Source: a virus. From it: a stretch of DNA of 54,264 nucleotides. The position numbers and the translations under genes are program-made. The DNA lies in IMG/VR virus record IMGVR_UViG_3300025141_000126, positions 1 through 54,264 of that record; one strand, written 5' to 3'. Below are positions 5,830 to 44,321 of the stretch, one piece after another. Numbering within the stretch: position 1 is the first letter of the stretch; each line of letters opens with the position of its first letter. The notes beneath the pieces are model-generated. The model worked only from the letters and a program-made list of their open reading frames with translations, made no database searches and was not told the origin of the DNA.

Positions 5830-6045
5830 ATGAATAATGTAGTCAAAACGACGACGCATGTCAACGCATTCCCTCGCAGTTTCTTCACATACGGGTGTTT
5901 CGCTGTGCATCACGACACGATGGCATGGCATCTCGACAACATCCTAAGTCGCCCCCAGCGTCAAGTGATGGCGAATATGCACCAAGCCAACCCTCTAGCG
6001 GCGGTCTCCGCAGCAGTCTACAGGGGGGTGTATCATGTCCAATAA
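5830..6045 (+). CDS. Hypothetical protein, 71 aa
   Basis: First ORF after the 5721 promoter and its leader hairpin. It overlaps the next gene by 11 bases, as is normal in this genome. No clear ribosome site precedes the ATG. The only resemblance to the small-paralogue family is a weak C-terminal VYRGVYHV. No domain recognised; a 102-aa ORF in another frame (5895-6203) overlaps and is judged less likely because it covers the better-supported gene at 6035. Confidence 0.45.
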   Translation: MNNVVKTTTHVNAFPRSFFTYGCFAVHHDTMAWHLDNILSRPQRQVMANMHQANPLAAVSAAVYRGVYHVQ

Positions 6046-6241
6046 CAAGTTACCAGACGACACTCATGAGAAGGTCTCTGCAATCATGTGGGATGCGTTC
6101 GACGCAGTCACAAACACATGCCCTGTCTATGCTATTATGCCTACGGAGTGGACTGCAGTGGATCAAGCGACCGAGCGAGAGGGGACAGTTGAACAGGCAC
6201 TAGAGGATGCATTTGACTTTGGAGGAGTGTTTGATGGATGA
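6035..6241 (+). CDS. Small paralogue family, cluster A member 1 (68 aa)
   Basis: Starts after an AGGGGGG ribosome site inside the end of the previous ORF. The N-terminus contains PDDTHEKVSAIMWDAF, matching the family signature DDT-x3-[IV] and a nearby W. It ends ...VFDG, and its TGA lies inside the ATGGATGA that starts the next gene, so the two are translationally coupled. Function unknown. Confidence 0.75.
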   Translation: MSNNKLPDDTHEKVSAIMWDAFDAVTNTCPVYAIMPTEWTAVDQATEREGTVEQALEDAFDFGGVFDG

Positions 6242-6410
6242 TACATACGGACTAATCGAGACTTGTACTCTTGCCGTGTACGACCAGTGCAGGAAACTGT
6301 GCCCACTAGATGATATGGTGGACCGCTACTGGAGGCGATGGGAGAGAGCGATCGACTGGAATACTAGCGAGTATACTGGTGAAGAAGCTACGAGGTTAGG
6401 CGATGGATGA
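6234..6410 (+). CDS. Small paralogue family, cluster A member 2 (58 aa)
   Basis: Begins MDDTYGLIE with the nested ATGGATGATAC junction; ORF reading from 6207 adds 9 residues without a better start. An AGGAG ribosome site lies 10 bases upstream. Contains DRYWRRWERAIDW in the position of the family's V-W core. Ends ...RLGDG with its stop inside the next start. Function unknown. Confidence 0.8.
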   Translation: MDDTYGLIETCTLAVYDQCRKLCPLDDMVDRYWRRWERAIDWNTSEYTGEEATRLGDG

Positions 6411-6591
6411 TACATACAAGCGGATAGAGCAGATCTACAGCAAGGCTCGTGGTGAGTGTGCGATCGGATGTCCGGCCCACTACAAGTTCATGTTCCTTGA
6501 CTCACGCGAGGACAGCGAGATGTGGAATCTTAGGATGGCACTGTCTTCTGGCGTTGGCAATGAAGCCTGGAGGTTACGCAGCGATGGATGA
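6403..6591 (+). CDS. Small paralogue family, cluster A member 3 (62 aa)
   Basis: Begins MDDTYKRIEQIY with the same nested junction as its neighbours (8-base overlap at both ends). Mid-protein SEMWNLRMALSSGV fits the W-x-x-[LV] core. Ends ...RLRSDG. The repeated EAxRL near the end of members 2 and 3 supports recent tandem duplication. Function unknown. Confidence 0.8.
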   Translation: MDDTYKRIEQIYSKARGECAIGCPAHYKFMFLDSREDSEMWNLRMALSSGVGNEAWRLRSDG

Positions 6592-6772
6592 TACAGCACA
6601 GAGGATACGCAACGAGACGCAGAAGGTGTTCGTGCAATGCAGCGAGGAGTGTGGCCCAACGACATGGGGATTTGGACTTGATGGGGTGGGCCAGACCAGC
6701 GTGGAGTGGGCACCGCAGGGATTGATAAGTTGGCAGGTGTATCAGTTGACATCGCCTACCCCGGAACAGTAG
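6584..6772 (+). CDS. Small paralogue family, cluster A member 4 (62 aa)
   Basis: Begins MDDTAQRIRNETQKV at the nested ATGGATGA. The first 15 residues match cluster A, but the rest diverges (TSVEWAPQGLISWQVY) and it is the last of this tandem set, ending without an -DG tail. Function unknown. Confidence 0.75.
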   Translation: MDDTAQRIRNETQKVFVQCSEECGPTTWGFGLDGVGQTSVEWAPQGLISWQVYQLTSPTPEQ

Positions 6773-6789
6773 AACAAGAAGAATGTGTT

Positions 6790-7089
6790 ATGTGTAAGTT
6801 ACTCCCCCTTGATTCAACCAATGTAGATCGGAGCGAGATGGTACAACCTACCGTAAGCAGTCGTGTCGTTGGTCCATGTACATGGTGCGGGGTGCGGCGG
6901 CTGAACCCGATATCGTTCAGCGGAGTGGTCGGGGGTGCGATACTCACAGCACCCAGACTGCGTGAAAGACTTCGACTAATTCCAGGCAATGCCGTTAGAT
7001 ATTGTACCCTGGTGGCCCGACAGATACACTTAATTGTGTGGGGTCTACGTGGTTGCTCCATAATTGCTCAATACACACAACAAGCCTAG
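6790..7089 (+). CDS. Doubtful ORF with CxxC motif, possibly frameshifted
   Basis: A 99-aa frame starts at ATG 6790 after a weak AAGAAG. It contains CTWCG, a zinc-knuckle-like pair, at about residues 31-35. Downstream composition is poor for coding. In the +1 frame the segment 6905-6979 reads ...GVRYSQHPDCVKDFD then stop, a plausible end for a zinc-binding protein. The locus may be a degraded or frameshifted gene filling the stretch between clusters A and B. Confidence 0.3.
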   Translation: MCKLLPLDSTNVDRSEMVQPTVSSRVVGPCTWCGVRRLNPISFSGVVGGAILTAPRLRERLRLIPGNAVRYCTLVARQIHLIVWGLRGCSIIAQYTQQA

Positions 7090-7115
7090 AAGCACAAAAG
7101 TGGACGCCGGATCTA

Positions 7116-7131
7116 CCCTATATCTATAGGG
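7116..7131. promoter_or_regulatory. Operator-like palindrome
   Basis: CCCTATA-TC-TATAGGG is a perfect 7-bp inverted repeat with a 2-base centre, 38 bases before cluster B. It could be a repressor site or part of a phage-specific promoter. There is no direct evidence for either. Confidence 0.35.
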
Positions 7132-7169: not shown

Positions 7170-7391
7170 ATGCATATGGATACGGAAATTAGGAAGATGG
7201 TCGGCAAGGATGGATGGTGGCACCTACAGAACCTCATCAAGAGCGAGTTCGGCAGACAGGTTGAGCACCACGTCTGGTGGGAGGTCATGAGTCCTGTCGG
7301 TCAGCAGCTACCAGAGAACGAATGGGCAATCGGGCACGTCGGTCGAAGCGTACTGTTTGATGTGATATCACTAGGAGATAACGATGAATGA
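7170..7391 (+). CDS. Small paralogue family, cluster B member 1 (73 aa)
   Basis: Three in-frame ATGs occur (7167, 7170, 7176). The AAAGGAG at 7157-7163 best suits 7170; family alignment would favour MDTEI at 7176. Core: VGKDGWWHLQNLI ... HHVWWEVMSP, aligning with members at 7580 and 7749. Ends ...GDNDE with the stop overlapped by the next start. Function unknown. Confidence 0.75.
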   Translation: MHMDTEIRKMVGKDGWWHLQNLIKSEFGRQVEHHVWWEVMSPVGQQLPENEWAIGHVGRSVLFDVISLGDNDE

Positions 7392-7587
7392 GATGGAGAT
7401 GTTCGCCAGCGATGTCCACCTCTGGGCACTGCTGGGGTTGATACGAGACCACGCCCCAGCGGCTGTAGAGGAAGCTGTATGGAGCGAGTTAAAGCGTGGG
7501 GTCCAGGTCGAGACTATCACGCACCAGATAGCAGTTAGGTCTGGGGTTGAATTGTACGCACTAACGCGAGGAGATAACGATGGATGA
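7384..7587 (+). CDS. Small paralogue family, cluster B member 2 (67 aa)
   Basis: Preceded by AGGAGATAACG directly abutting the ATG, the same ribosome site as the next member. Core: SDVHLWALLGLI then EEAVWSELKRGV, which aligns with the D-x-x-LW-x-[LI] and VW-x-x-[VL]K pattern of cluster B. Ends ...RGDNDG. Function unknown. Confidence 0.8.
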   Translation: MNEMEMFASDVHLWALLGLIRDHAPAAVEEAVWSELKRGVQVETITHQIAVRSGVELYALTRGDNDG

Positions 7588-7768
7588 AGCAATCGCCCGG
7601 CTAGTGGGCAAAGACTACCTGTGGGGTATAGATGCTGAACTTGGACAGATGAGTTCAGCGTTGAGCAGGCAGGTCTGGTACGGCGTGAAGTCACCGTCGT
7701 CCCACGAGATGACAATAGAAATACCAGTAGAAAACGGGGTACGGGATCATGTCCGACGAATGGATTAA
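7580..7768 (+). CDS. Small paralogue family, cluster B member 3 (62 aa)
   Basis: Begins MDEAIARLVGKDYLWGI and carries RQVWYGVKSP, the clearest cluster B consensus. Ribosome site GAGGAGATAACG is identical to that of the preceding gene, showing that the regulatory part was duplicated with the coding part. Overlaps its neighbours by 8 and 20 bases. Function unknown. Confidence 0.8.
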   Translation: MDEAIARLVGKDYLWGIDAELGQMSSALSRQVWYGVKSPSSHEMTIEIPVENGVRDHVRRMD

Positions 7769-7946
7769 GCGACTCGGCAGCGATAGCCACTTGTGGAACT
7801 TAGAGCGGGAGATCTCCAAGCATTGCGCAGAGGCTGACTACATTGTCTGGCGCAGCGTAAAAGGCAGTGTCGATCAAAAGCTAGGGAGGCTAGAGAACGT
7901 CGTTCATATCGGGGTCTTTCAACAACAACATTCCATTGGTCCTTGA
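7749..7946 (+). CDS. Small paralogue family, cluster B member 4 (65 aa)
   Basis: MSDEWIKRLGSDSHLWNLEREI ... (first 20 residues resemble member 3), then YIVWRSVKGS. Last of the cluster; its stop codon lies at the -35 box of the next promoter. Function unknown. Confidence 0.75.
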   Translation: MSDEWIKRLGSDSHLWNLEREISKHCAEADYIVWRSVKGSVDQKLGRLENVVHIGVFQQQHSIGP

Positions 7947-8004: not shown

Positions 8005-8730
8005 ATGTCAGACTCAGGAACCTACGACGCTGGACCTACCTTCTACAAGGCACTACTCGCCGCATGTAAGGAAGTCACCGCACTCGGTCACGACAGCACC
8101 AGCAACAGGTACAAGTACACATCCGCTGAGGCGATCATCGCGTACTCTCGCGACCTGCTCAACAAGCAAGGCATTATTGTCGAACGGCATGAGTATTCAT
8201 TAGGCGAACCCATTAGCGAGAAGGACACTTTCGGCAACGCCTCGATCACGCGCAGTGTCACGGTCATGTTCCGCGTCGTGCATGAAAAAGGGGAGCGCCA
8301 ATACTACACGGGTGTGTTCCCAGCGTGTCTAACGAAGGCCATGCCGTGGGACAAAGCGGTCGCTGCCGCACTCACCACCAGCCTCGCCTACTTCCTGAGA
8401 GATCTCCTACAGATCCCACGCACCGGAGCCGGGGAAACGATGGACGAGCGCAACGACCACCCCGACGAGACACCTGCACCGAAGGGAGCAAAGCATCCGA
8501 AGAGGACAAAGAAGTCTCCCGCTGAGGTGGCCGACGACAAGGCACAGGTCAACGCAGCGAAGGGGCTATGCCTGGAAATGTCAGGGGCAAAGACCCTCAA
8601 GGCACTGGAAGTCCTCCGTGATAAGTTCCATGATGGGAAGATGAACTTCACCCAAGCCCTGACAGGCAAGGTGCGAACGGCGTACCGGAAGCGATTCCGC
8701 GAACTCGGTGGCGTGGTCGATGCGAAGTGA
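8005..8730 (+). CDS. ERF-family single-strand annealing protein
   Basis: The 241-aa protein starts after CTAGGAGAACTACC. Residues 12-60 (FYKALLAACKEVTALG, then YKYTSAEAIIAYSRDLLNKQG) and about 112-140 (WDKAVAAALTTSLAYFLRD, LLQIPR) match the ERF superfamily of phage single-strand annealing recombinases. These promote annealing of complementary strands during recombination and replication restart. A Lys/Pro-rich linker (about 150-172) joins a small C-terminal domain. It heads an operon from its own promoter, followed by an SF2 helicase, with SSB and a RusA-like resolvase elsewhere in the window: a coherent recombination set. Confidence 0.88.
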   Translation: MSDSGTYDAGPTFYKALLAACKEVTALGHDSTSNRYKYTSAEAIIAYSRDLLNKQGIIVERHEYSLGEPISEKDTFGNASITRSVTVMFRVVHEKGERQYYTGVFPACLTKAMPWDKAVAAALTTSLAYFLRDLLQIPRTGAGETMDERNDHPDETPAPKGAKHPKRTKKSPAEVADDKAQVNAAKGLCLEMSGAKTLKALEVLRDKFHDGKMNFTQALTGKVRTAYRKRFRELGGVVDAK

Positions 8731-8923
8731 TGACACTCACACCACCATAGACGTGGTGACCAACCCCAAACCCGGCGGGTATTGTGCAGCTGTAAGCTAT
8801 GTGGTTATCCAAGGCACGGCTTGCGGCGACCTTCTCCACGCCGCTGTCATAGATGGAGTGGAGCATGGAACAGGATCTATTCGAGTTCGCGATACCCCCA
8901 GTACCAGAGGTGAGGTTACCTAA
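8720..8923 (+). CDS. Small paralogue family, divergent member (67 aa)
   Basis: ATG at 8720 lies inside the end of the ERF gene. The N-terminus MRSDDTHTTIDVV carries the DDT-x3-I signature seen across the window. It lacks the V-W core and overlaps the helicase start by 59 bases, more than usual, so it may be a decaying copy. Function unknown. Confidence 0.5.
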   Translation: MRSDDTHTTIDVVTNPKPGGYCAAVSYVVIQGTACGDLLHAAVIDGVEHGTGSIRVRDTPSTRGEVT

Positions 8924-10553
8924 GCCCGCCTTTGATCCCCGGTTTTACCAGAGCGAGGCAGTAGATAATGCCTTTGAAGCCTGGGATTCTGGTGCTGTGG
9001 GGTGTCTGCTAGTACAAGCAACCGGCACCGGCAAGACTGCGACTGGTTGCTTTATCGTCAAACGCTGGTTAGAGCAGGGGCCGGATTATCGTGTTCTGGT
9101 AGTTCTCCACGAACGGCCCTTGTTCTACCAGTTCTCAGATGACATCGAGAAGATCCTCCGTGTCACCCCCGGTCTAGAGGCAGGAGCAGATCATCGCCTG
9201 CAGCTCCCTATCCCGAAGATCGTAGTGGCGATGCGTCAGTCTCTTGTTGATCGCGTTCGCAACGGGCAGATCGTATCTCGACTTGGCAAGTACGACACCG
9301 ACAAGAAGTACCTCCTGATCCTCGACGAAGCACACAGATACAAGAAGGGCCTGAAGCAGGTCGCTCCGATCCTAGAGCGTTTCACGGATGCTCGCCGGTT
9401 GCTGCTCACCGCCACGCCAGAACGAGGGGACAAGGTTTCGCTCGCTAGTCTCGGGGAAGTGGTGGTCGCTGACTACCCGCACACGTCCCTGGATGGCAGG
9501 CCAAGTGCTTGCGGCGATGGATTTGTCGTTGACTTTGAACAGCATTTTGTCACAATCAATTCAGTCGATTTACAGAAAGTGAAGGGACATAAGTCAAAGG
9601 ACTGGAGTGCAGAGGATCTGTCCGACAAGCTGTCCCAGGTACGTGCCCTGGACGAGATCATCCAGCCGTCACTCGACATCGTACAAGACAAGAGGTCACT
9701 GGTGTTCTGCGTGGATCGCGCGATGAGCAGGGCATTGGTAGATCGGATCAACCACAAGTACATACCGGGTGCAGCGAGATGGATCGACGCCACCCTCCCC
9801 ATGGAAGAGCGGAAGGAAATACTAGCAGCACACAAAGCGAACGAGTTTCAGTTCTTGTGTGTCGTAGGATTATGCAGAGAGGGTTACAACGACCCGTACA
9901 TAGAGGCTGTAGTGTGTGCAAGACCAACGAAGTCAGCGTCACTCGCGGAACAGATGAAGGGTCGCGGGTGCCGTGTATTGCCAGGAGTTATTGATGGACT
10001 GGAGACTCGCGAGGAACGGTTGGATGCGATTAAGAACAGCGATAAGGACCGATGTATCGTCGTTGATCTGGTCGGGGCAACAGGGTTGGCTGGGAATCAA
10101 ACAGTGGCAAGCATCCTCGCCAAGGGACTGCCGGATCATCTCGTCGACCTTGTCACAGAGAGGGCGAATCTCCTTGCCAAAGAAGCCTCAACGGAACTTT
10201 CACTTAAGGAGATCGTCGAGAAGACCGCCGAAGACCTTCTAGAGGAGGACCGCATCGCAGAGGAAATGGTCGAGCGGGAGAGGTTGCGTTACATCGAGAA
10301 TCAAATCGATGCTGCCCGACTTGCTGGTCTTACCCTCGACGTGGACTACACCTCCAAGATAGTAGATCAGGGCGAAGGGACAGTACTAAAATTCAGGCGA
10401 CCTGAGATGAGGGTGAGCAACGGCAAGTACAAAGGCAAACTGTTGTCGCGTGTACCCACTGGCTACATCGAGTTCATGATCACGAAGCTGAAGCCAGGAT
10501 GGTATCGATCGAAATTCCAGGCAGAGTTGAAGTATAGGAGGCCACAGCTATGA
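8865..10553 (+). CDS. SF2 DEAD/DEAH-type helicase
   Basis: ATG at 8865 is favoured by GGAGTGGAG upstream; 8853 is an alternative adding four residues. The 562-aa protein has Walker A ATGTGKT (52-58), DEAH box LDEAH (about D154), motif III LTATPE (about 181) and a motif VI-like QMKGRGCR (about 363-370). It is an ATP-dependent nucleic-acid translocase or unwinding enzyme of the UvsW/type III restriction helicase style. A long charged helical region (about 430-500) follows the core. Placement after ERF suggests a role in branch migration or replication restart. Confidence 0.88.
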   Translation: MEQDLFEFAIPPVPEVRLPKPAFDPRFYQSEAVDNAFEAWDSGAVGCLLVQATGTGKTATGCFIVKRWLEQGPDYRVLVVLHERPLFYQFSDDIEKILRVTPGLEAGADHRLQLPIPKIVVAMRQSLVDRVRNGQIVSRLGKYDTDKKYLLILDEAHRYKKGLKQVAPILERFTDARRLLLTATPERGDKVSLASLGEVVVADYPHTSLDGRPSACGDGFVVDFEQHFVTINSVDLQKVKGHKSKDWSAEDLSDKLSQVRALDEIIQPSLDIVQDKRSLVFCVDRAMSRALVDRINHKYIPGAARWIDATLPMEERKEILAAHKANEFQFLCVVGLCREGYNDPYIEAVVCARPTKSASLAEQMKGRGCRVLPGVIDGLETREERLDAIKNSDKDRCIVVDLVGATGLAGNQTVASILAKGLPDHLVDLVTERANLLAKEASTELSLKEIVEKTAEDLLEEDRIAEEMVERERLRYIENQIDAARLAGLTLDVDYTSKIVDQGEGTVLKFRRPEMRVSNGKYKGKLLSRVPTGYIEFMITKLKPGWYRSKFQAELKYRRPQL

Positions 10554-10738
10554 GTGGTGTCATGTACCAGATACAAAAGGTCGTGCGGTTTGACCTGGAA
10601 AAAGTACTGGAGAGTCACGTTAACCACAATGTCTCACTCGATGCTCGCATGGGCATGAGATGGGAAGTATACAGGCCCATCGACGAACTGGTAGACGGCG
10701 TTGTATTCTCGGCGGTACGGCAGGAGTGTCGGGAATGA
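10550..10738 (+). CDS. Small paralogue family, cluster C member 1 (62 aa)
   Basis: Overlaps the helicase stop by 4 bases (ATGA). Pattern: LEKVLESHVNHNVSLDAR, then MRWEVYRPIDELVDGVV, ending VRQECRE. Aligns end to end with the next two genes. RW replaces the VW of other clusters. Function unknown. Confidence 0.75.
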   Translation: MSGVMYQIQKVVRFDLEKVLESHVNHNVSLDARMGMRWEVYRPIDELVDGVVFSAVRQECRE

Positions 10739-10920
10739 ACACCACGCACTTGATACACAAGGCGGTATGGGGCAACGTGGAGGAGATCCTGAATAAACAC
10801 AGCAACCCGAACCTCACCCTTGGTGTACGACTAGAGGTGAGGTGGGCTGTCCATGCAGTGATCGACTCGCAACTAGACGACCATGTGGTTCGTGGCGTAT
10901 GGGAGACCCGCAAGCTGTGA
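10735..10920 (+). CDS. Small paralogue family, cluster C member 2 (61 aa)
   Basis: ATGA overlap with member 1. MNTTHLIHKAVWGNVEEIL carries both an NTT-x-x-I start and a V-W; then HSNPNLTLGVRLEVRWAVH and IDSQLDDHVV match member 1 position by position. Function unknown. Confidence 0.78.
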   Translation: MNTTHLIHKAVWGNVEEILNKHSNPNLTLGVRLEVRWAVHAVIDSQLDDHVVRGVWETRKL

Positions 10921-11135
10921 ACGCCAGACACCGGATCAACAATGAACTGACCACTCACATGGAGATAGAACTGAACACAGAGATTGCCTCAGCAGTCAGG
11001 TTTTCTGCGAGGCAGGCATTACGGTGGCCTGCGTATGACTTGACAGAGGTAGAGGTAAACCACCATATTGAACGCACGATATTATCCGAAGTTCGTGTTT
11101 TGCGAACTACCGCCCACCCCCGGAGAGACACATGA
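10917..11135 (+). CDS. Small paralogue family, cluster C member 3 (72 aa, GTG start)
   Basis: GTG at 10917 overlaps the TGA of member 2 (GTGA). VNARHRINNELTTHMEIEL and SARQALRWPAYDLTEVEVN align with members 1 and 2. The tail RTTAHPRRDT is extra and its stop overlaps the next ATG. Function unknown. Confidence 0.7.
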   Translation: MNARHRINNELTTHMEIELNTEIASAVRFSARQALRWPAYDLTEVEVNHHIERTILSEVRVLRTTAHPRRDT

Positions 11136-14287: not shown

Positions 14288-15364
14288 ATGGGACTCAAGG
14301 ACGACCTCGCCAAAGCAAGCGAGAAGAAGCAGGAAGAGGAATCAGCAGTCATCAAGGAGTTGCGGAGTAGGGATCGTGAACTCGCCAAGGCCAAGGCGGC
14401 TCTCAAGACAGCGAAGATCAAGCTGAAGCAGAGCGAAGAGGAGTTGGAACTAGAGAAGCAGAAGTCGGAGATCGTGGTAGCCACATCCGGGGCACCAAAG
14501 AACCGTCGCTTCGCCCGCAAGAAGGGCAAGTCCACCAGCAACGCCGTGGGTATTGTGTGCCTCACTGACTGGCATGTCGAGGAGACGATCGACCCCGCCA
14601 CAGTCAACGATCTCAATGCATTCACCCTCGACATAGCCGACGCTCGCATTCGCCGCACATTCGACAAGTCCCTTGATATGCTCCAGTTCTCTAGGGGCCA
14701 GAGCAACATCAAAGAACTGTGGGTATGGCTAGGTGGCGACTTCATTACTGGGTACATCCATGAGGAGTTAGAGGAATCCAACTCCCTCTCCCCACCCGAG
14801 GCTGTCGTCTGGCTGCAAGACAGAATGTATACCGGCCTGAAGTTCCTTGCGCAACACGCCGACGTAGATCGTATACGAGTCATCCCATCCTGGGGTAACC
14901 ACGCACGCACTAACAAGAAGACACGCATCTCAACCCGAGCAGAGAATACCTATGAATGGATCTTGTACCACAACCTCGCCCGAGCATTCAACGACGACCC
15001 AACAGTTGAGTTCAAAATCGAGAAGGGTTACCACAACATCAACGACTGGTACGGATACAAAGTACGATTTCATCACGGTGATGGGCTCAGATACAACGGG
15101 GGCGTGGGAGGCATTACCATCCCTGTCAACAAGTCGATCAACCAGTGGAATAAAGCTACACGATGCGACCTAGACGTGTTCGGCCACTACCACCAGTTCA
15201 TCAACTGTCGCACGTTCGTCAGCGTGGGGTGCCTCATTGGGTACAGCCCGTACGCCTTAGAGATCAAGGCAGAGTGGGAGCCGCCAACGCAGTCGTTTAT
15301 TGTGATCGACAAGCACTACGGCAAGGTACTAGCGGAGCAGATCTTCTGCGAGGAAGCCAAGTGA
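14288..15364 (+). CDS. Calcineurin-like metallophosphoesterase
   Basis: 358 aa. The first 65 residues are a Lys/Glu coiled coil. The catalytic domain shows the full motif set in order: DWH (D94, H96), GGDF (D151), GNH (N204, H205), HHGD (H262-H263) and GHYHQ (H300, H302), which together bind two metal ions. Phage proteins of this type are phosphoesterases or nucleases acting on DNA or nucleotides. It follows an HTH gene and precedes HNH and RusA-like genes, suggesting a DNA-processing role. Confidence 0.85.
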   Translation: MGLKDDLAKASEKKQEEESAVIKELRSRDRELAKAKAALKTAKIKLKQSEEELELEKQKSEIVVATSGAPKNRRFARKKGKSTSNAVGIVCLTDWHVEETIDPATVNDLNAFTLDIADARIRRTFDKSLDMLQFSRGQSNIKELWVWLGGDFITGYIHEELEESNSLSPPEAVVWLQDRMYTGLKFLAQHADVDRIRVIPSWGNHARTNKKTRISTRAENTYEWILYHNLARAFNDDPTVEFKIEKGYHNINDWYGYKVRFHHGDGLRYNGGVGGITIPVNKSINQWNKATRCDLDVFGHYHQFINCRTFVSVGCLIGYSPYALEIKAEWEPPTQSFIVIDKHYGKVLAEQIFCEEAK

Positions 15365-15567
15365 AACGAGACACCACGTACCGAGACATAGACGATGGAT
15401 TAGATCGAGGCATCAACGACCGTGGGTTGTACAACCTAGTTGGTGTTGACCTGTCCGTGGTGACCAGAGTCAGGAATGAACTCATGCTTGAGAGATCAGG
15501 CGTGACGAGGATGTGCAGACACATAGAACAAAGCATAGCACGGAGAGTTGATGATGACCCCAGCTGA
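15361..15567 (+). CDS. Small paralogue family, isolated member (68 aa, GTG start)
   Basis: GTG at 15361 overlaps the TGA of the previous gene. VKRDTTYRDIDDGLDRGIN has the DT-TY-x-x-I start typical of the family, followed by a Val/Arg-rich helix. No W in the core. Overlaps the HNH gene by 17 bases. Function unknown. Confidence 0.6.
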   Translation: MKRDTTYRDIDDGLDRGINDRGLYNLVGVDLSVVTRVRNELMLERSGVTRMCRHIEQSIARRVDDDPS

Positions 15568-20087: not shown

Positions 20088-20612
20088 ATGAGATTAACGA
20101 ATGACCAGCGCGACTTGTGTGCGGAACATGTACCTCTAGCACGAGTCTGGGCTGCACACTTTATATCAAGACACCCTTGGGCCGAACGAGTAATTGACTG
20201 TGAATCCACCGCGCTTGAGTCGCTATGCAGTGCAGCTACGACGTACGACCCAACGCTAGGTGAGTTCCCCCCATTCGCTCAGCGGGTGGTACGCAATGCG
20301 ATGATCGATGCATGTCGTCACGCCATGCGTCCAAAGAGGCACCTCCCTGATACGCTCCAGCTGACGAGATCCCATCTTCGCCAACTGCTCGACCCAAGTC
20401 CAGGCCCACAAGAGCAGGTTGAGACAGCAGAGTTCTTAGACAAAGCGATGGAGAACATGGACCCCTCCCACCAGCATGCGCTGTACATGCGTCACGGCCT
20501 GGGGATGACTCTGATCGAGGTCGCCCGAGAGTTGGACGTGTGCATAGAGACTGCACGAACGTATGCTAACGCCGCCCTCGCGAAGATACAGAGCGAAGTA
20601 GATCGGTCTTAA
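20088..20612 (+). CDS. RNA polymerase sigma factor-like protein
   Basis: 174 aa. TYDPTLGEFPPFAQRVVRNAMIDACR (about 53-80; read as TYDP ... FAQRV ... NAMID) matches sigma70 region 2. MTLIEVARELDVCIETARTY (about 143-162) is a region 4 HTH. Region 3 is absent and region 1 is reduced, as in ECF-type or phage late sigma factors. It is the last plus-strand gene before the convergent minus operon and could redirect host RNA polymerase to late genes (inference). Confidence 0.75.
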   Translation: MRLTNDQRDLCAEHVPLARVWAAHFISRHPWAERVIDCESTALESLCSAATTYDPTLGEFPPFAQRVVRNAMIDACRHAMRPKRHLPDTLQLTRSHLRQLLDPSPGPQEQVETAEFLDKAMENMDPSHQHALYMRHGLGMTLIEVARELDVCIETARTYANAALAKIQSEVDRS

Positions 20613-20754
20613 CTTGCCAAACAGATCGAGATAGATCAATCTCCGTAGACTTGACAGCCCTGTATAGGCCTTCCCACGCAGCATCTATGTTAGGTGGCTT
20701 CATCTTAGCCCATGTGATCAGATTGCCGATCAACTCGTAGGTGTTATCGATCAT
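20566..20754 (-). CDS. Small paralogue family, cluster D member 4 (62 aa)
   Basis: MIDNTYELIGNLI start and RSVWQVKTDLLRSV near the end fit the family (DNT-x3-I and VW-x-x-x). It is the last gene of the minus operon and overlaps the 3' end of the sigma-like gene by 47 bases head-on, so the two transcripts could form antisense RNA. Function unknown. Confidence 0.7.
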   Translation of the reverse strand: MIDNTYELIGNLITWAKMKPPNIDAAWEGLYRAVKSTEIDLSRSVWQVKTDLLRSVSSRGRR

Positions 20755-34620: not shown

Positions 34621-34648
34621 AAGGAAGGGAAGAAGTTGAGCAAGGTGC

Positions 34649-34664
34649 ATTGATCGCGATCAAT
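34649..34664. promoter_or_regulatory. 16-bp perfect palindrome
   Basis: ATTGATCGCGATCAAT. A likely protein-binding site in the noncoding switch region. Confidence 0.55.
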
Positions 34665-35254: not shown

Positions 35255-35674
35255 ATGTACACCTACATCTCTCGTGACTGTACCCCCCTTCAGCGTAGGT
35301 GGTATCGCCTCTTGCGTTGGCTTGGGTTCTACCGTATTCGCCACATCAAGGGGGTAATGCGTGGTCATCAGCATGACATTGGCGACCCTCGTGAGCCGTC
35401 AGTTAAGTATCTGATTGGCTTGGCTGTGACGCAGGAGGTCGAGGATGCTATCTACTACGGGCGTACTCGCTGGTCCTGGCGTCATCTCTCGTTTCAGCGG
35501 GAGGTGCTTATCGACCGTCACGTCATCTGGGACGTTGAGCGCAACATCCTTACCCCGATCCTCGACGATCAGGCTGGCGACTCTTGGCGTGGACTCATAG
35601 ACCGGCACTCACCAAGCCTCAATAACCGTGGGCCTGTGCCGATAGGGGTGGACAATGAGGTGTTCTGGTTATGA
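35255..35674 (+). CDS. Hypothetical protein, 139 aa, distantly like the small paralogues
   Basis: Start after CTGGAGTGAACC, a ribosome-site cassette also used at 35942 and 38935. Basic N-terminus (RRWYRLLRWLGFYRIRH), then QEVEDAIYYGRTRW and DRHVIWDVERN, the second resembling the family V-W core. Could be an enlarged or fused member. Function unknown. Confidence 0.65.
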   Translation: MYTYISRDCTPLQRRWYRLLRWLGFYRIRHIKGVMRGHQHDIGDPREPSVKYLIGLAVTQEVEDAIYYGRTRWSWRHLSFQREVLIDRHVIWDVERNILTPILDDQAGDSWRGLIDRHSPSLNNRGPVPIGVDNEVFWL

Positions 35675-35874
35675 TCACTAGCATTAAGACCCAGATCGAA
35701 GACGCTGTTACCGTTCCTCTTGAGGAGGATATCCGTGACCACTGCCGCCTCGTTGCTACAGTCGTTAGCGTCAGGGTGCTCAGACCAGTAAGGCGCGCCC
35801 ACTTTCCGCTCCATCGCGGCATCACATCCGGCAATCACCAACGCATCTACAACCTAGTTTCGTATCACAGCTGA
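35671..35874 (+). CDS. Small paralogue-like protein, 67 aa
   Basis: ATGA overlap. MITSIKTQIEDAVTVPLEEDI has a T-x3-I-ED start; no W core and an Arg-rich C-terminal half. Possibly a degraded member, as the C-terminus looks unlike other copies. Confidence 0.5.
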   Translation: MITSIKTQIEDAVTVPLEEDIRDHCRLVATVVSVRVLRPVRRAHFPLHRGITSGNHQRIYNLVSYHS

Positions 35875-35881
35875 CACGAAC

Positions 35882-35910
35882 TTGCCTCTGCGGCCCTGTT
35901 CTGGTACAAT
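35882..35910 (+). promoter_or_regulatory. sigma70-type promoter
   Basis: TTGCCT at 35882-35887, 17-base spacer, TACAAT at 35905-35910, 30 bases before the gene at 35942. Confidence 0.65.
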
Positions 35911-35941
35911 AACGTGCCTCTTTTTATTACTGGAGTGAACT

Positions 35942-36136
35942 ATGGATATCGACGACACCTATCTAAAGATCCTGCGTGCCACCCGCAACGTCGTAGATGA
36001 TCAACTCGACAAGAACCTCGTGGCTGGTGTCGTTGTGCGGCATGTGCTCAACCGGGTGTCGGATGCTGTTTGGCCCTTGCAATGGATGCTGTACACGGGA
36101 CTCTCCAAGATCTGTAACTCGGAGGTGTACTCATGA
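35942..36136 (+). CDS. Small paralogue family member (64 aa)
   Basis: CTGGAGTGAACT precedes the ATG. MDIDDTYLKILRATRNVVDD contains DDTY-x3-[IL]; SDAVWPLQWML is the V-W core. ATGA overlap with the next gene. Function unknown. Confidence 0.75.
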   Translation: MDIDDTYLKILRATRNVVDDQLDKNLVAGVVVRHVLNRVSDAVWPLQWMLYTGLSKICNSEVYS

Positions 36137-36719: not shown

Positions 36720-36967
36720 TCACCTTCCTCCTAGCTTTCACCCAGGGACTGTCCTTCTGTCTCGTGTCTCGCTCACGCAACAGGGATAATCTCACGTACC
36801 ACCTGTTCTCTAGCTTGTTTTCTAATGCTATATTATTTGCCACCTTCCGACATCTCGTGCTATCAGGCATGTCCTTCTGGCTGTTCTTCCCCTACACGAT
36901 TGGGATGACGCTGGGATCTCTGCTTGGTATGCGCTGCTCACTCTGGATCGAACGTAGGATAGCCTAA
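36716..36967 (+). CDS. Phage small membrane protein, 83 aa
   Basis: Three hydrophobic segments (FLLAFTQGLSFCLV, ATFRHLVLSGMSFWLFF, TIGMTLGSLLGM) around the polar SRSRNRDNLTYHLFSSLFSN. That SRxRNR...YH...SN pattern occurs in small membrane proteins of many unrelated phages, from recall. Function unknown. One base separates it from QueC. Confidence 0.68.
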   Translation: MITFLLAFTQGLSFCLVSRSRNRDNLTYHLFSSLFSNAILFATFRHLVLSGMSFWLFFPYTIGMTLGSLLGMRCSLWIERRIA

Positions 36968-36968
36968 T

Positions 36969-37574
36969 ATGAAGACAATCGTGATACTATCGGGGGGTGT
37001 GGACTCTACTGTGATCCTCTGGCGGTGCTTAGCTGCGGAGGATGAGGTGAAGGCACTCTCATTCGACTACGGTCAACGACATCGCCGGGAACTCGACGCT
37101 GCCACGAAGATCGCTGCCAAGGCAGGGGTCGAGCATAAGATCGTGGATGTGACAGCATGGGGCGACCTGATGCAGCCTATCCTAAGAGCTCCTGTCCCCC
37201 ACGGCCATTATGAGAGCGAACAGCAGAAGTCTACCGTCGTGCCTAACCGGAATATGGTCTTCATCGCGATCGCTGCCTCCTGGGCTATGTCTGTCGGATA
37301 CGATCAAGTCGCTATCGGTGCCCATGCCGGGGATCATCACATCTACCGGGACTGCCGGGAATCGTTCTTTGCTCCCCTGGAACTAGCACTCTATGCCTCT
37401 GATGAGCGTCAAATACAGATCTGGCGACCGTATGTTCGGCAAACAAAGGCTGAGGTGATCGCTGACGGCAGGGATCTAGCTGCTCCGCTTGATATGACCT
37501 GGACTTGCTATGAGGGCGGGGACGTGCCGTGTGGTAAATGCGGTGCCTGTGTCGAGAGAGAGGAAGCGGAATGA
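36969..37574 (+). CDS. queC: 7-cyano-7-deazaguanine (preQ0) synthase
   Basis: 201 aa. PP-loop SGGVDST at 8-14 for ATP binding, and a C-terminal zinc site C180, C188, C191, C194. QueC converts 7-carboxy-7-deazaguanine to preQ0 using ATP and ammonia. In phages this product is used to modify DNA rather than tRNA. It overlaps QueE by 4 bases, and QueE overlaps the DpdA-like gene by 1, so the three form a pathway operon. QueD and FolE are absent here and would have to come from the host or the missing part of the genome. Confidence 0.92.
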   Translation: MKTIVILSGGVDSTVILWRCLAAEDEVKALSFDYGQRHRRELDAATKIAAKAGVEHKIVDVTAWGDLMQPILRAPVPHGHYESEQQKSTVVPNRNMVFIAIAASWAMSVGYDQVAIGAHAGDHHIYRDCRESFFAPLELALYASDERQIQIWRPYVRQTKAEVIADGRDLAAPLDMTWTCYEGGDVPCGKCGACVEREEAE

Positions 37575-38164
37575 AGATCAACGAGAGGTTTGTTTCGTAC
37601 CAGGGATCGGGGCTAATGACCGGTCAGCAGCAGTATTTCGTTCGGCTACACGGTTGCTCTGTACCTTGTCCTATCAAGGCAATGTGCGATGAGTCTGATG
37701 CACTATCGGGCGAACCCAACGAGGAGTTGACCGTGGAGGACGTGGCTATCGCAGCCGCTGAGTCTGGCACCGGTTGGCTGCATCTAACCGGTGGTGAACC
37801 GATGGATCAGCGTAGCGAGGTTGCGTATGCCATCGCTCATGCCCGAGACCGAGACGTGAAGACTCACATTCAAACCAGCGGTGCTGTCTGGTGCCCATCA
37901 GTAGACTACCTCACGGTGAGCCCAAAAGCAGAGAAGGTTGCTCAGAACTACGGCGACGAGATGATCCTTGTCTACGATCCGGCCTGGGTTACGGTTGATG
38001 TTGCGAATGAACTACGGCGATCGACCTCGTTCGGCCTGTACTACATGCAGCCGCTATGGGAGTTTGGCACATGCAACTCAGACAAGACCTTGAAGTTCAT
38101 GGCCGCGCTGAAGGGTTCATGGAGAATTAGCGGTCAACTGCACAAGTACTTGGGGATTCGGTAA
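37571..38164 (+). CDS. queE: 7-carboxy-7-deazaguanine synthase-like radical SAM enzyme
   Basis: 197 aa. RLHGCSVPCPIKAMCDES provides the cluster-binding Cys at C29, C33 and C39. LHLTGGEPMDQ (GGEP SAM motif), HIQTSG and YLTVSPKAE match QueE, which contracts carboxy-tetrahydropterin to CDG. The Cys spacing CX3CX5C is not the usual CX3CX2C of radical SAM enzymes. Its place between queC and the DpdA-like gene secures the assignment. Confidence 0.85.
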   Translation: MKINERFVSYQGSGLMTGQQQYFVRLHGCSVPCPIKAMCDESDALSGEPNEELTVEDVAIAAAESGTGWLHLTGGEPMDQRSEVAYAIAHARDRDVKTHIQTSGAVWCPSVDYLTVSPKAEKVAQNYGDEMILVYDPAWVTVDVANELRRSTSFGLYYMQPLWEFGTCNSDKTLKFMAALKGSWRISGQLHKYLGIR

Positions 38165-38931
38165 TGCGGCACTACCACGGCACGCCACTTGGAGGTACAC
38201 GGGAATCGGTGGCGCGATTTGTGATCACAGGGAATCGACACTTCCTTGTACCCTTCCCGAACCCCGACGACCTCTCCGTGATCGCTGAGTCGAGTTGTGG
38301 CTTCTGTGTGGACAATGGTGCTTTCAGTGCCTGGAGATCCGGCAAGCCTGTCACCGACTGGGGACCGTATTACGACTGGTGTACACTGTGGTGCCGTCAT
38401 CCCCGCTGGGATTTTGCGGTCGTCCCAGACGTGATTGGGGGGTGCGAAGAAGAGAATGATTTGCTTGTAGAGGAATGGTTTGCCCGCACCCGACTCGACG
38501 ACGGCACTTGTGCTGAGGGAGCACCGGTCTGGCATCTACATGAATCATTCGATCGACTCAACCGGTTAATGGCCGACAGCCGAATCATCTGCTTGGGTAG
38601 CAGCGGTGAGTATCAGAACCCTGGCACCACCGCTTGGCACGACCGAATGGCAAAGGCTATGGATGTGCTGTGTGATAGCACTGGTAGTCCCAGGCGTAAG
38701 ATACATGGCCTGCGTATGCTGGACCCGGCGATCGTCGCGAGATACCCGCTGTTCAGTGCGGACTCAACGAACGTCGCACAGAACTCTCAACTACTCGGTC
38801 GGTACGGCATGTACAAACCACCTACTCAGGCCCAGCGAAGGGAAGTACTGGCAGCTCGTATTGAGACGACTAGGTCTCCTGGGATCTGGGTGCCTGCCGC
38901 TAAGCAAGAAGAACTATTCTCTCTGGAGTGA
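38164..38931 (+). CDS. dpdA: DpdA-like DNA 7-deazaguanine transglycosylase
   Basis: 255 aa. MRHYHGTPLGGTRESVARF start; DNGAFSAW with D50 in the position of the TGT substrate-binding Asp; PDVIGG (D89); PVWHLHES (122-128); SADSTNVAQN with D200 in the position of the TGT nucleophile region. I recall this family as phage DpdA-type tRNA-guanine-transglycosylase homologues that exchange guanine in DNA for preQ0 or a related base. With queC and queE just upstream, the phage DNA is predicted to carry dPreQ0 or a derivative, protecting it from host restriction. Confidence 0.75.
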   Translation: MRHYHGTPLGGTRESVARFVITGNRHFLVPFPNPDDLSVIAESSCGFCVDNGAFSAWRSGKPVTDWGPYYDWCTLWCRHPRWDFAVVPDVIGGCEEENDLLVEEWFARTRLDDGTCAEGAPVWHLHESFDRLNRLMADSRIICLGSSGEYQNPGTTAWHDRMAKAMDVLCDSTGSPRRKIHGLRMLDPAIVARYPLFSADSTNVAQNSQLLGRYGMYKPPTQAQRREVLAARIETTRSPGIWVPAAKQEELFSLE

Positions 38932-38934
38932 CCA

Positions 38935-39120
38935 ATGGACGACACACGCGACAGTATAAACAACATCGCCTGGGAGGCATGGCATCGCCTGCGAGAGGAC
39001 ACCGGCAACTTGATACATACGGTGCCGATGATAAACGCCGTAGCGATGTCAACAGTGCACGGTCCAAGCCAACTCATCGGAGACGAGGTATGGCTTTTCG
39101 CCGGGGGTTACCATGGATGA
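38935..39120 (+). CDS. Small paralogue family, cluster G member 1 (61 aa)
   Basis: CTGGAGTGACCA then ATGGACGACAC. MDDTRDSINNIAWEAWHRL has the full signature. Ends ...GGYHG with its stop in the next ATGGATGA. Function unknown. Confidence 0.8.
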   Translation: MDDTRDSINNIAWEAWHRLREDTGNLIHTVPMINAVAMSTVHGPSQLIGDEVWLFAGGYHG

Positions 39121-39289
39121 TACCAGCCACAAGATCACCGCCGCCACCAATATATGCTTCCATGGCATCGACTTCACCCCACTCATGCTCGCTAGCATTG
39201 GTATCGTGCGAGGCAGTTGGTTCCGGCGTGACGAAGGTTCTGTTTGGAATGACGAGGTCATGGAGGATATATCATGGATAACACAGTGA
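39113..39289 (+). CDS. Small paralogue family, cluster G member 2 (58 aa)
   Basis: Read directly from the sequence: ATGGATGATACC at 39113. MDDTSHKITAATNI start, EGSVWNDEVMEDI core near the C-terminus. Overlaps both neighbours. Function unknown. Confidence 0.78.
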   Translation: MDDTSHKITAATNICFHGIDFTPLMLASIGIVRGSWFRRDEGSVWNDEVMEDISWITQ

Positions 39290-39459
39290 CGTTGATTGAG
39301 GTCGCGGTGGACGTGCCCTGCGTCGGAGGAAATACGCTAGCTGCTTCTTATGTTCGACAGCACGTTGCCAGTGAACTGCATTCCCCTGCATTCTTCGCTA
39401 TTGATGGAATGCTAGACCCCGAACTCACAGTAGACTGGGAGATAACACGGTGTCTGTAA
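39274..39459 (+). CDS. Small paralogue family, cluster G member 3 (61 aa)
   Basis: Ribosome site GGAGG, then ATGGATAACAC. MDNTVTLIEVAVDVPCVGG fits M-D-N-T-x3-IE; the W is near the end (VDWEI). Overlaps both neighbours. Function unknown. Confidence 0.75.
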   Translation: MDNTVTLIEVAVDVPCVGGNTLAASYVRQHVASELHSPAFFAIDGMLDPELTVDWEITRCL

Positions 39460-39656
39460 TTCACGAAATAGAGCGTACCTGCGGCGTATTCCTGCTGTAC
39501 AATCGCTGTCCACGGATCAAAGAAGCATTTGTTGAAGTCTGGGGAGCAGTGGATAACGACATGGACTTCCAAGTGATCGTCGGGGATCGGTTCATGGGGG
39601 GCATTTGCGCAAAGGTTGGTGAAACAGTAGAACACATAGGAGAAGACAATGGATAG
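39450..39656 (+). CDS. Small paralogue family, cluster G member 4 (68 aa, GTG start)
   Basis: GTG after GGGAGATAACAC. MSVIHEIERTCGVFLL, then FVEVWGAVDND core. Ends ...GEDNG, with the stop nested in ATGGATAG. Function unknown. Confidence 0.75.
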   Translation: MSVIHEIERTCGVFLLYNRCPRIKEAFVEVWGAVDNDMDFQVIVGDRFMGGICAKVGETVEHIGEDNG

Positions 39657-39870
39657 AGGAATCAGCCTTGATATCGAACGGGCGACCCTAGACAGAACTC
39701 GACTGGCACTCTTGGACGACCTGTCCGCTGCCATCGCTGTGGATGTGCATTTTCAGATCCCTCCCAACTTCTCCACTACATCGGATGTGATCGACTTGCG
39801 AGAGACTGTTGACGACGCGATATATTTCACGCTTGACAGTAACGACGGCAGCGGTACAATAAAGCTGTGA
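39649..39870 (+). CDS. Small paralogue family, cluster G member 5 (73 aa)
   Basis: AGGAGAAGACA then ATGGATAGAGG. MDRGISLDIERATLDRTRL and a second VDDAIYFTL motif; it lacks a W. A promoter overlaps its 3' end. Function unknown. Confidence 0.68.
   Translation: MDRGISLDIERATLDRTRLALLDDLSAAIAVDVHFQIPPNFSTTSDVIDLRETVDDAIYFTLDSNDGSGTIKL
39833..39860 (+). promoter_or_regulatory. sigma70-type promoter
   Basis: TTGACA at 39833-39838, 16-base spacer, TACAAT at 39855-39860, inside the end of cluster G and 140 bases before the gene at 40000. Confidence 0.7.
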
Positions 39871-39999
39871 CTGTCACGGTCACACGATGGGTAGGCGGAG
39901 GTGGAGGACTTGTTGTCCTATGTGCTGTACCGCGAATTAGTTCCTCATGGCTGCACACCACCTTTGCCGTTTTTATACACCAAACCACCAAGGGTCACT

Positions 40000-40540: not shown

Positions 40541-40569
40541 TTGACCTTTGACTGACCGGGGTATACGAT
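40541..40569 (+). promoter_or_regulatory. sigma70-type promoter whose -10 overlaps a start codon
   Basis: TTGACC at 40541-40546, 17-base spacer, TACGAT at 40564-40569. The AT of the -10 box is also the start of the ATG at 40568, so a transcript from here would begin inside that gene. It may serve genes from 40738 onward. Confidence 0.5.
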
Positions 40570-40750
40570 GGATGAAGCAGCAGAGAGGATTGTTGGCATC
40601 GGCGGGTTCCTTGGCGGCATATGCTCAGACATGAGCGCGGCACTCGGCAAGATTCAGGTTAACTCGCCTCACGACCTTCTCTACACAGACGTTGACGACA
40701 TACACATGGCAGTATACACGGACGTTTGGAAAGACATATGGATATTCTAG
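40568..40750 (+). CDS. Small paralogue family member (60 aa)
   Basis: ATGGATGAAGC start as in cluster B member 3. MDEAAERIVGIGGFLGGI; DVWKDIWIF at the end carries the V-W core. No ribosome site other than GGGG is visible. Function unknown. Confidence 0.65.
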   Translation: MDEAAERIVGIGGFLGGICSDMSAALGKIQVNSPHDLLYTDVDDIHMAVYTDVWKDIWIF

Positions 40751-41234: not shown

Positions 41235-41399
41235 ATGAATAAATGGCGACTCAATCCGCTTGACATGGCAGAGTACGATGAGACCTGCCGTCTAGAAGAA
41301 CTGGCTGCAGCTGAAGAAGATCGCGTTGCTCGATTTAGCGTAGCGACCGATGCTGAGAACAAAGCTCTAGAGGAGGGGCTGAGTGATGACAGCGACTAA
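41235..41399 (+). CDS. Small acidic protein, 54 aa
   Basis: TAGGAGTGACCT ribosome-site cassette, then MNKWRLNPLDMAEYDETCRL and an acidic helix ending GLSDDSD. Read from the sequence; too short for a confident family assignment. Overlaps the next gene by 14 bases. Confidence 0.65.
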   Translation: MNKWRLNPLDMAEYDETCRLEELAAAEEDRVARFSVATDAENKALEEGLSDDSD

Positions 41400-41613
41400 G
41401 ATCACAGCACCGTCGAATCTCCCGTGGTTCGGCATAGCCCGCGACACACACAAAGCGATGAGTGCGTGTATAGACCACAATGTCCGTGACAGGGTTTGGA
41501 GTGGTGTGCTACGACGTGTCGATCGGCAAAACCTCGGGATGTCTTGGATTACGCACCCACAAGTAATAAGGGAGGTGGTCAGTGAATTTTCTACAAAGCA
41601 TGTGTCTGAATAG
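41386..41613 (+). CDS. Small paralogue family member (75 aa)
   Basis: ATG at 41386 after GAGGAGGGG. DTHKAMSACIDHNVRDRVW then SGVLRRV shows the DT-x4 and VW-x-x-V pattern, displaced by an N-terminal extension. Overlaps the methyltransferase start by 32 bases. Function unknown. Confidence 0.68.
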   Translation: MTATKITAPSNLPWFGIARDTHKAMSACIDHNVRDRVWSGVLRRVDRQNLGMSWITHPQVIREVVSEFSTKHVSE

Positions 41614-42939: not shown

Positions 42940-43342
42940 CTTCTTGAAGGTCATCACGGCGGCTGCAATCGCCCCGACAATGCCATTGGCTGTTATCCCT
43001 GCGAAGGAGTACTCCACCATATATGGGGTGAGTCTCTTCCAATCAACGGGGGTTTCACACTTCACGGCAAAGGGTATACTGAAGCACCTAGATGGCACGA
43101 TCACATTGAAGAACGAAACAGATCAAGAGATCAAGAGAGGAAGCCTCGTCTACCTCACAAAGATCCAGGCCGGAAAGGAGAAGGCGTGGCTTGACACCGC
43201 ATCGTACATGCGAGGTGGCGATGAATCGGAGTGGGATATGCCCGACGACGAAGCAACATCATCAGAGCAGTCGCTGGTGCAGAAGACACGCAAGATACAC
43301 GAAGAACTGGCACACAACAAAGCAATGGGCTATCGTTCATGA
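42923..43342 (+). CDS. Tat-exported protein, 139 aa
   Basis: MTTRRNFLKVITAAAIAPTM matches the twin-arginine consensus (S/T)RRxFLK followed by a moderate hydrophobic stretch, so the protein is probably exported folded. GGGAGATGAGTG is the ribosome site. The mature part is beta-type (GILKHLDGTITLKNETDQE) with an acidic C-terminus. Phage-encoded Tat substrates are unusual. No domain recognised. Confidence 0.72.
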   Translation: MTTRRNFLKVITAAAIAPTMPLAVIPAKEYSTIYGVSLFQSTGVSHFTAKGILKHLDGTITLKNETDQEIKRGSLVYLTKIQAGKEKAWLDTASYMRGGDESEWDMPDDEATSSEQSLVQKTRKIHEELAHNKAMGYRS

Positions 43343-43539
43343 GAAGCGACAACACTACGGCACTGGTATCGTGTCAATGCGACATTGTCATCGACACACT
43401 ATCATGCGACGACATTGTGTCCAACGAGGTCTGGGCAGTGGTCAACAACCGTTTATTCAACCCTGTTGCTGCTACATTAGCACAATTTTACCCCCCTGTT
43501 ATCACGGAGATCGACGAATGTCTAGTTTCAATCGAGTAG
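43339..43539 (+). CDS. Small paralogue family, cluster H member 4 (66 aa)
   Basis: ATGA overlap. MRSDNTTALVSCQCDIVID, then SNEVWAVVNNRL, a full core. Ends 22 bases inside the SSB gene. Function unknown. Confidence 0.75.
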   Translation: MRSDNTTALVSCQCDIVIDTLSCDDIVSNEVWAVVNNRLFNPVAATLAQFYPPVITEIDECLVSIE

Positions 43540-43886
43540 TTATTGTAGGTCATGTCACGCGAGACATCGACCTGAAGCACACGCAAAGCGGCACTGCCGT
43601 ATGTGATCTTGGCGTAGCTGTCAACGATCGCGTCAAGAAGAATGAGGTTTGGGTCGATGAGACCACGTTTGTGGATTGCACGGTCTGGGGTCGCAACGCT
43701 GAGACCTCTGCACAGTTCCTGCGGAAGGGTTCACAGGTCTTGGTCGAAGGTCGGCTGAAGATGGACGAATGGGAAACGGACGGTCAGAAGCGATCGAAAA
43801 TGCGCGTATCCGCTGATCGGGTTGTTTTTCTCGGAAGTAAGTCTGATGCCCCAGCAGAGGATGCTCCCGCTGATCTTGCTTGGTAA
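43518..43886 (+). CDS. ssb: Single-stranded DNA-binding protein
   Basis: 122 aa after CGGAG. MSSFNRVVIVGHVTRDIDL start, CDLGVAVND, TFVDCTVWGRNAETSAQFL, KGSQVLVEGRL and a DADRVVFLG-type end: a complete bacterial-type OB fold. The C-terminus is short (PAEDAPADLAW) and lacks the acidic DDDIPF-type peptide. It protects single strands in replication and recombination with ERF. Confidence 0.93.
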   Translation: MSSFNRVVIVGHVTRDIDLKHTQSGTAVCDLGVAVNDRVKKNEVWVDETTFVDCTVWGRNAETSAQFLRKGSQVLVEGRLKMDEWETDGQKRSKMRVSADRVVFLGSKSDAPAEDAPADLAW

Positions 43887-43893
43887 CCTCGTC

Positions 43894-43931
43894 TACCCCT
43901 GCCGAGCATGAGGCTTAGTGGGGGTATTTTT
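43894..43931 (+). terminator. Rho-independent terminator after ssb
   Basis: TACCCC (43894-43899) pairs with GGGGTA (43921-43926), with internal GCC/GGC support, followed by a T5 run. Confidence 0.65.
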
Positions 43932-43944
43932 ATGGAGATACGAC

Positions 43945-44115
43945 ATGGATAACACGAAAGAACTGATTCACGCCCCCTTCGTGCAGTTGCTGTTTGGGAT
44001 GCCGCTTGGGGTTCACCCAGATCATATCGAACGCCGCCCCCACGACGCTGTTGACCATGAGTTATTCACTATGCTCGAAGGGGGTCCGATATGGATGACA
44101 CAAGAGACCTCATAG
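43945..44115 (+). CDS. Small paralogue family, cluster I member 1 (56 aa)
   Basis: ATGGAGATACGAC before ATGGATAACAC. MDNTKELIHAPFVQLL start with M-D-N-T-x3-I; a DHELF and an IWMTQ end replace the core. Overlaps the next gene by 25 bases. Function unknown. Confidence 0.72.
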   Translation: MDNTKELIHAPFVQLLFGMPLGVHPDHIERRPHDAVDHELFTMLEGGPIWMTQETS

Positions 44116-44321
44116 AGAAGCTAATGCACTCCGACATTGATGACGCCACTGAGCAACTCCCGATGCGCGTCTGGTGTCCGGTCTGGGGGCATATGTGCGG
44201 GTTTCGGTCGATGCAGGATGGCGGTACACCTACCCTAGGAATAAGGTCCGACATGGATGTTGCGGCCCAGGCACACGTACGCAGCAAGACTTTCTCCCTC
44301 CGGTATGGGGGTATCGACTAG
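44091..44321 (+). CDS. Small paralogue family, cluster I member 2 (76 aa)
   Basis: ATGGATGACAC start. MDDTRDLIEKLMHSDIDDAT and PMRVWCPVWGHM give a full signature. The N-terminus resembles 38935 (MDDTRD). Last small gene before the structural module. Function unknown. Confidence 0.78.
   Translation: MDDTRDLIEKLMHSDIDDATEQLPMRVWCPVWGHMCGFRSMQDGGTPTLGIRSDMDVAAQAHVRSKTFSLRYGGID

Follow-up and report, generated by a model that had tools for sequence, protein, structure and literature searches.

A lineage-specific family of small, rapidly evolving proteins encoded in overlapping tandem gene cassettes of a virus, with a putative host-directed role

Introduction

In T4-type phages, hyperplastic regions are said to be built of promoter/stem-loop (PeSL) cassettes, in which small open reading frames (ORFs) lie at repeated signals. 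The present work concerns a family of genes for small proteins carried by the virus record IMGVR_UViG_3300025141_000126 of IMG/VR, the whole of which (54,264 bp) was analysed and is called the window; genes are designated by their position in it. As in the T4 case, small lineage-specific ORFs appear to come and go as units, with short repeated signals at their joints. In T4-type phages, however, the repeat is a promoter/stem-loop between genes, and most of the ORFs are unrelated to one another; in the present virus the joint is the start codon itself, which often overlaps the stop codon of the preceding gene, and a single paralogous family makes up the cassettes. Promoter-like sites at 34.3-45.7 kb were not above chance (7 found, 8.4 expected), and neighbouring genes of the tandem sets overlap, which leaves no space between them. 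A promoter-like TTGCCT/TACAAT sequence over a small stem-loop with a T-run, at 35882-35918 (+) just before gene 35942, recalls the T4 arrangement.

Anti-CRISPR and other anti-defence loci also combine small proteins, tandem operons, fast evolution and a lack of database relatives, but their proteins are usually unrelated to one another, whereas the present family has one shared ancestry and at least 25 copies, its matches to defence proteins being isolated, single-member PADLOC matches only. In the nin region of lambdoid phages, what is exchanged are genes that are either unrelated or allelic; in the present virus the cassettes are paralogues of one another, and one event would therefore also duplicate or delete members.

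Short conserved repeats, sometimes with the upstream stop codon, are found at many gene starts of Cluster K mycobacteriophages, where these Start Associated Sequences (SAS) have been suggested as targets of homologous recombination (PMC3203893). The SAS, GGGATAGGAGCCC, is 13 bp long and precedes genes from different families (PMC3203893), whereas the repeat described here begins at the ATG, is coding and marks a single family. GGGATAGGAGCCC is absent from the upstream sequences of the family genes, whose common motif instead covers the ATG and the bases that follow it. The present case also resembles gene-by-gene mosaicism, an established model (PMC3233612), in that recombination is directed to short boundary sequences common to different genes. 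Finally, the 'ORFanage' of cyanophage S-PM2, 33 ORFans in one block that were lost together in culture, is likewise a block of novel marine-phage genes that can be lost, but is not described as one paralogous family (PMC4503421). The present case differs in that every cassette comes from the same paralogous family and in that the repeated sequence is the beginning of the coding region; no described equivalent was found in the open-licence literature.

A paralogous family beyond its start motif

The first-pass annotation of the window had proposed about 36 small paralogues in tandem sets on both strands, and small candidate ORFs are present at the positions that it listed. The set compared consisted of the translations of these 36 candidates and of 11 counterparts from a second close contig, IMG/VR 3300025072_001070 (18,428 bp, hereafter the strain). 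The motif VW..[VLI] was found in 13 of the 36 candidates, as against 2 of the 198 other window ORFs of 50-80 residues and a mean of 1.5 (maximum 6) in shuffled versions of the 36, while an N-terminal D[DN]T occurred in 15 candidates and in none of the 198. These counts are biased because the candidates had been chosen by eye on the same motifs; the profile tests are less so.

With whole clusters held out, most members outscored all 60 of their own shuffles. A profile built with close relatives held out recognized 25 of the 36 candidates at p<=0.01 and none of 18 small genes of the phage that served as controls. When shuffling left the first nine residues in place, 25 of 36 (and again 0/18 controls) were still recognized at p<=0.05, and the family likeness therefore reaches beyond the MDDT start. 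In a scan of 1136 stop-to-stop peptides, in which gene 21089 was the top-scoring member, all non-seed matches of at least 7.7 bits were candidates, strain counterparts or the strain homologue of 35671; at 7.3 bits and below, further candidates were mixed with wrong-frame ORFs, and reversed sequences reached 7.8 bits. BLAST, run on a tiny database, linked members within clusters down to E 2e-8 (10550-10735) and, in one case, across clusters (21089-44091, E 4e-7). Genes 10917 and 7749 were added through BLAST links, giving about 27 firm members.

Cross-hits among clusters are thus found by the hold-out profiles, and the annotated family stands, as does its arrangement on both strands, at 6.0-11.1, 15.4, 20.6-23.8 and 35.7-44.3 kb (table 1). 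Its size had been somewhat overestimated: about 27 members are firm and about 33, not 36, are plausible, the stretch at 42.4-42.9 kb being where too many had been counted. Genes 42379 and 42573 were not recognized by the close-relative hold-out profile; in contrast to the family, these two and 42739 show 98.5-100% conservation from one strain to the other. Membership of 40568 is unsupported by the profile, though the gene is hypervariable. As judged from sequence comparison, some 25-27 members are of common ancestry. Divergence between members is extreme, and one global alignment of them all has too many gaps to be readable.

Translation signals and coding constraint

Shine-Dalgarno-like sequences lie upstream of nearly all family genes, and all tandem junctions within the family are overlaps of 1-25 nt, eight of them of exactly 8 nt. 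In five of these eight the overlap is ATGGATGA, which includes the stop codon of the upstream gene, and in the other three it is one of the variants ATGAATGA, GTGGATAG and ATGGATAG. The common start sequence, often ATGGATGAYAC, is coding (MD[DN]T) and varies synonymously. For eight orthologous pairs with the strain, the pooled synonymous (dS) and non-synonymous (dN) divergences were 0.59 and 0.26, with an omega of 0.44 (bootstrap 95% confidence interval 0.34-0.58). Because of the Shine-Dalgarno-like sequences, the overlapping tandem starts and this dN/dS ratio, the family genes are judged to be real and their coding frame to be under purifying selection.

Hypervariability between strains

The median dS of family genes was 0.59 as compared with 0.04 for the other genes (Mann-Whitney p 2e-4) and the median dN 0.245 as compared with 0.0055 (p 5e-5), and the difference held against neighbouring non-structural genes alone (p 1e-3 for dS, 3e-4 for dN). 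The strains are 97-99.9% identical in the structural region. Genes 40568, 43339 and 44091 are low-identity islands between better conserved stretches: 44091 has 67% DNA identity between flanks of 97% (43887-43944) and 88% (44322-44412), and 40568 has 69% between flanks of 97% and 86%. The two alleles of 35942 share 56% DNA identity, although the stretch at 36508-36966 is 96% identical. Along nine orthologous pairs, conservation by quarter from the N- to the C-terminus was 79%, 63%, 50% and 53%. Because dS is raised as well as dN, the simplest reading is that alleles have been replaced from a diverged pool, and not changed by point mutation alone.

Exchange at start codons

Three changes in gene content (events A, B and C) were aligned base by base between the window and the strain. 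In event A the strain follows the window upstream of 43945 through ATGGATAACAC and continues with the body of 44091, 43945 being absent. In event B what precedes queC in the window is joined in the strain, at the ATG, to the body of 39113. In event C it is the window that is without one of two tandem paralogues: it agrees with the strain ahead of gene s5111 as far as the end of ATGACAGC, and from there on with the body of s5305. All three examined changes join at the start codon, A and C inside 8-11 shared bases. On these alignments, the array behaves as a set of exchangeable start-to-start cassettes, family genes being swapped, gained and lost as whole units in a genome that otherwise differs little between the strains. 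Annealing at the short shared start sequences may drive the exchange, perhaps carried out by the ERF, single-strand binding (SSB) and exonuclease proteins of the phage, with ERF as the candidate agent.

The whole-region alignment with the strain misplaces a gap over approximately 36969-39999; for this part of the window, BLAST and direct alignment of the junctions were relied on instead. The block at 36969-38931 (+), absent from the strain, holds queC, a QueE-like radical-SAM gene and an unassigned ORF. Two minus-strand genes of the strain (L013), a membrane-like gene at 10494-10868 and a small one, whose product starts with TDDT, at 10835-11047, are absent from the window; both sit between the counterparts of 39649 and 40000, and their right-hand junction is apparently just before the start codon of 40000.

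Predicted structure and database searches

The proteins are mostly acidic (mean charge -4.3). AlphaFold models of two members are all-helical and of modest confidence (predicted local distance difference test, pLDDT, 70 and 69; predicted template modelling score, pTM, 0.38 and 0.46), with three helices in one (residues 4-20, 25-38 and 41-57) and four in the other (3-9, 11-25, 27-44 and 47-67). In Pfam, PHROGs and PADLOC no family match common to several members was found, but only isolated single-member matches, of which the best, to BrxC in PADLOC (E 8e-4, 1/45 members), is probably due to chance. No Foldseek or hidden Markov model match at E <= 0.001 was obtained in PDB or BFVD, no tblastn match of two members in INPHARED and no match in Rfam. 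Scans of IMG/VR (with two spacings) and of GTDB genomes for tandem start motifs returned this virus, its strain and unrelated matches only, and the family profile found no credible member in the loci checked; in a marine Rhodospirillaceae match (L041) the motif falls inside a longer unrelated ORF. The relatives of the exonuclease (L018-L022) carry no detectable family member in the stretches examined. That the family has no described relative, as had been annotated, was thus borne out by these searches.

The virus and other features of the window

The virus, which is uncultivated, is very probably a tailed phage because the window encodes a terminase, a major head protein, two helicases, an ERF annealing protein, an SSB, an exonuclease and a sigma-like protein, the last at 20088. 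Another IMG/VR contig, 3300025122_000127, is 99.96% identical to the window and runs beyond its right end. Relatives sought with the terminase, the major head protein, the helicases and a 1572-residue ORF were only the two close contigs or none, and INPHARED contained neither DNA similar to 44-54 kb of the window nor a relative of the terminase. The 1572-residue ORF, at 994-5712 (+), includes a ParB-N-like stretch and, by peptide patterns, has no close IMG/VR relative. A serine resolvase-type recombinase is encoded at 24277-25059 (-), and dense CTCGAGATC palindromes and GAGATGAGACGAGGAAGG repeats at 33160-34650 possibly mark an origin or a regulatory region. A second, unrelated tandem set of small genes lies in a leftward unit at 30381-30927 (-), with a third ORF at 30742; its first two genes look alike (MSYYHLLTLRR.. 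and MTYFHRLTLRS..).

Table 1. Positions of the family genes, of the junctions between strains and of the recombination-related genes in the window.
Feature	Positions	Strand	Evidence and remarks
Tandem set of 4 (6035, 6234, 6403, 6584)	6035..6772	+	three consecutive 8-nt ATGGATGA stop/start overlaps; BLAST, profile
Tandem set of 4 (7176, 7384, 7580, 7749)	7176..7946	+	overlaps 8, 8, 20 nt; BLAST E 1e-3 to 1e-5; profile
Single weak candidate	8720..8923	+	profile p 0.04
Tandem set of 3 (10550, 10735, 10917)	10550..11135	+	4-nt overlaps; BLAST E 2e-8, 5e-5; profile
Single family gene, GTG start	15361..15567	+	profile p 0.005
Tandem set of 4 (5' ends 21301, 21110, 20929, 20754)	20566..21301	-	BLAST, profile
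Tandem set of 3	23181..23756	-	profile p 0.005 each
Two family genes (35671, 35942)	35671..36136	+	profile
Tandem set of 5 (38935, 39113, 39274, 39450, 39649)	38935..39870	+	profile; 38935 absent from strain
Hypervariable small gene, MDEA start, membership unsupported	40568..40750	+	profile p 0.24
Family gene; strain has two diverged tandem paralogues (L013 8932-9126, 8711-8932, minus)	41386..41613	+	BLAST, junction alignment
Probable family gene overlapping SSB gene; dS 0.09, dN 0.13	43339..43539	+	profile, strain comparison
Two family genes (43945, 44091), 25-nt overlap; 43945 absent from strain, start-to-start junction	43945..44321	+	
Copy of the start motif, ATGGATAACAC, at which event A joins; its partner ATGGATGACAC lies at 44091-44101	43945..43955	+	
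Event B block: queC, QueE-like gene, 38164 ORF, family gene 38935	36967..39113	+	absent from strain
ERF-superfamily single-strand annealing protein	8005..8730	+	Pfam ERF E 3e-8
Single-strand binding protein (SSB)	43518..43886	+	Pfam SSB E 6e-31
Exonuclease-like protein	14288..15364	+	PHROG 284 E 1e-36

Discussion

The reading that we favour, with confidence and doubt about equally weighted, is that of a lineage-specific family of about 25-33 small (approximately 60-residue), mostly acidic and probably all-helical proteins, encoded in overlapping tandem cassettes and with a putative host-directed role. The pattern suggests a rapidly evolving toolkit directed at the host, and our best guess is that its members are accessory proteins with targets in the host, because an arms race is what best fits small genes of a single family that lie outside the structural core in many copies and are quickly replaced. 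The products would be soluble binders of host components in the infected cell, serving takeover or anti-defence, and the arms race would drive copy number and turnover, with diversification by duplication and cassette exchange. The first-pass annotation had named host takeover, anti-defence, decoys and heteromeric assembly as speculative roles.

Several points weigh against this reading. Both structure models are weak; what is seen is a high dS rather than dN/dS above 1, which speaks for replacement of alleles and not for positive selection as such, dN exceeding dS only in 43339. The exchange itself was followed in one informative strain and in three base-level events; further differences between the strains lie in the 36133 gene and in the two additional genes that the strain has ahead of 40000. 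In event B there is little common sequence apart from the region of the start. Moreover, breakpoints at gene starts can also arise from illegitimate recombination followed by selection for intact genes, a model discussed in PMC3233612.

A more elaborate proposal, which we put forward tentatively and consider unlikely as a whole, is that of a phage diversification system in which a single small helical scaffold has been amplified to at least 25 copies, the overlapping stop and start codons serve as recombination joints, and the phage's own annealing recombinase continually duplicates, deletes and swaps whole binder genes in frame, yielding a combinatorial repertoire against host defences. Somewhat more doubtful is the idea that each protein supplies a subunit to a heteromeric assembly (virion, nucleoid or replication complex) in need of many slightly different paralogues. 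The predicted helical nature of both modelled members, the shared core with a variable remainder and the location next to replication genes and the structural module would agree with it, but a fixed stoichiometry is hard to square with single members that come and go between strains whose structural regions are 97-99.9% identical. It is less probable again that they are small regulators, binding DNA or RNA polymerase and each controlling one transcription unit: small helical proteins are indeed spread over units on both strands of a phage with its own sigma-like protein, but they are mostly acidic, match no helix-turn-helix or other regulator family, and one regulator per unit would not need tandem sets of 3-5. 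That the genes are mostly dispensable filler, duplicates that persist through recombination and limits on genome length and have hardly any selected function, is improbable; gain and loss between strains and the extreme divergence among members would be expected of it, but not the dN/dS ratio with its upper confidence limit of 0.58, the intact frames, the start signals and the conserved core. An artefact of motifs picked by eye from unrelated short ORFs is very improbable, since, although members were chosen by motif and 42379, 42573 and 40568 do fail, it is refuted for the family core by the close-relative hold-out with fixed N-terminus and controls, to which BLAST links and codon-level constraint are added.

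Phage genomes abound in small ORFans, and these may be relics or else fast-evolving weapons. In the present virus the genes that vary form one recognizable family with measurable selection, turnover and junctions, which makes the question testable and, if the arrangement is general, exchange at overlapping start codons would be a concrete route by which phages reshuffle accessory genes without breaking them.

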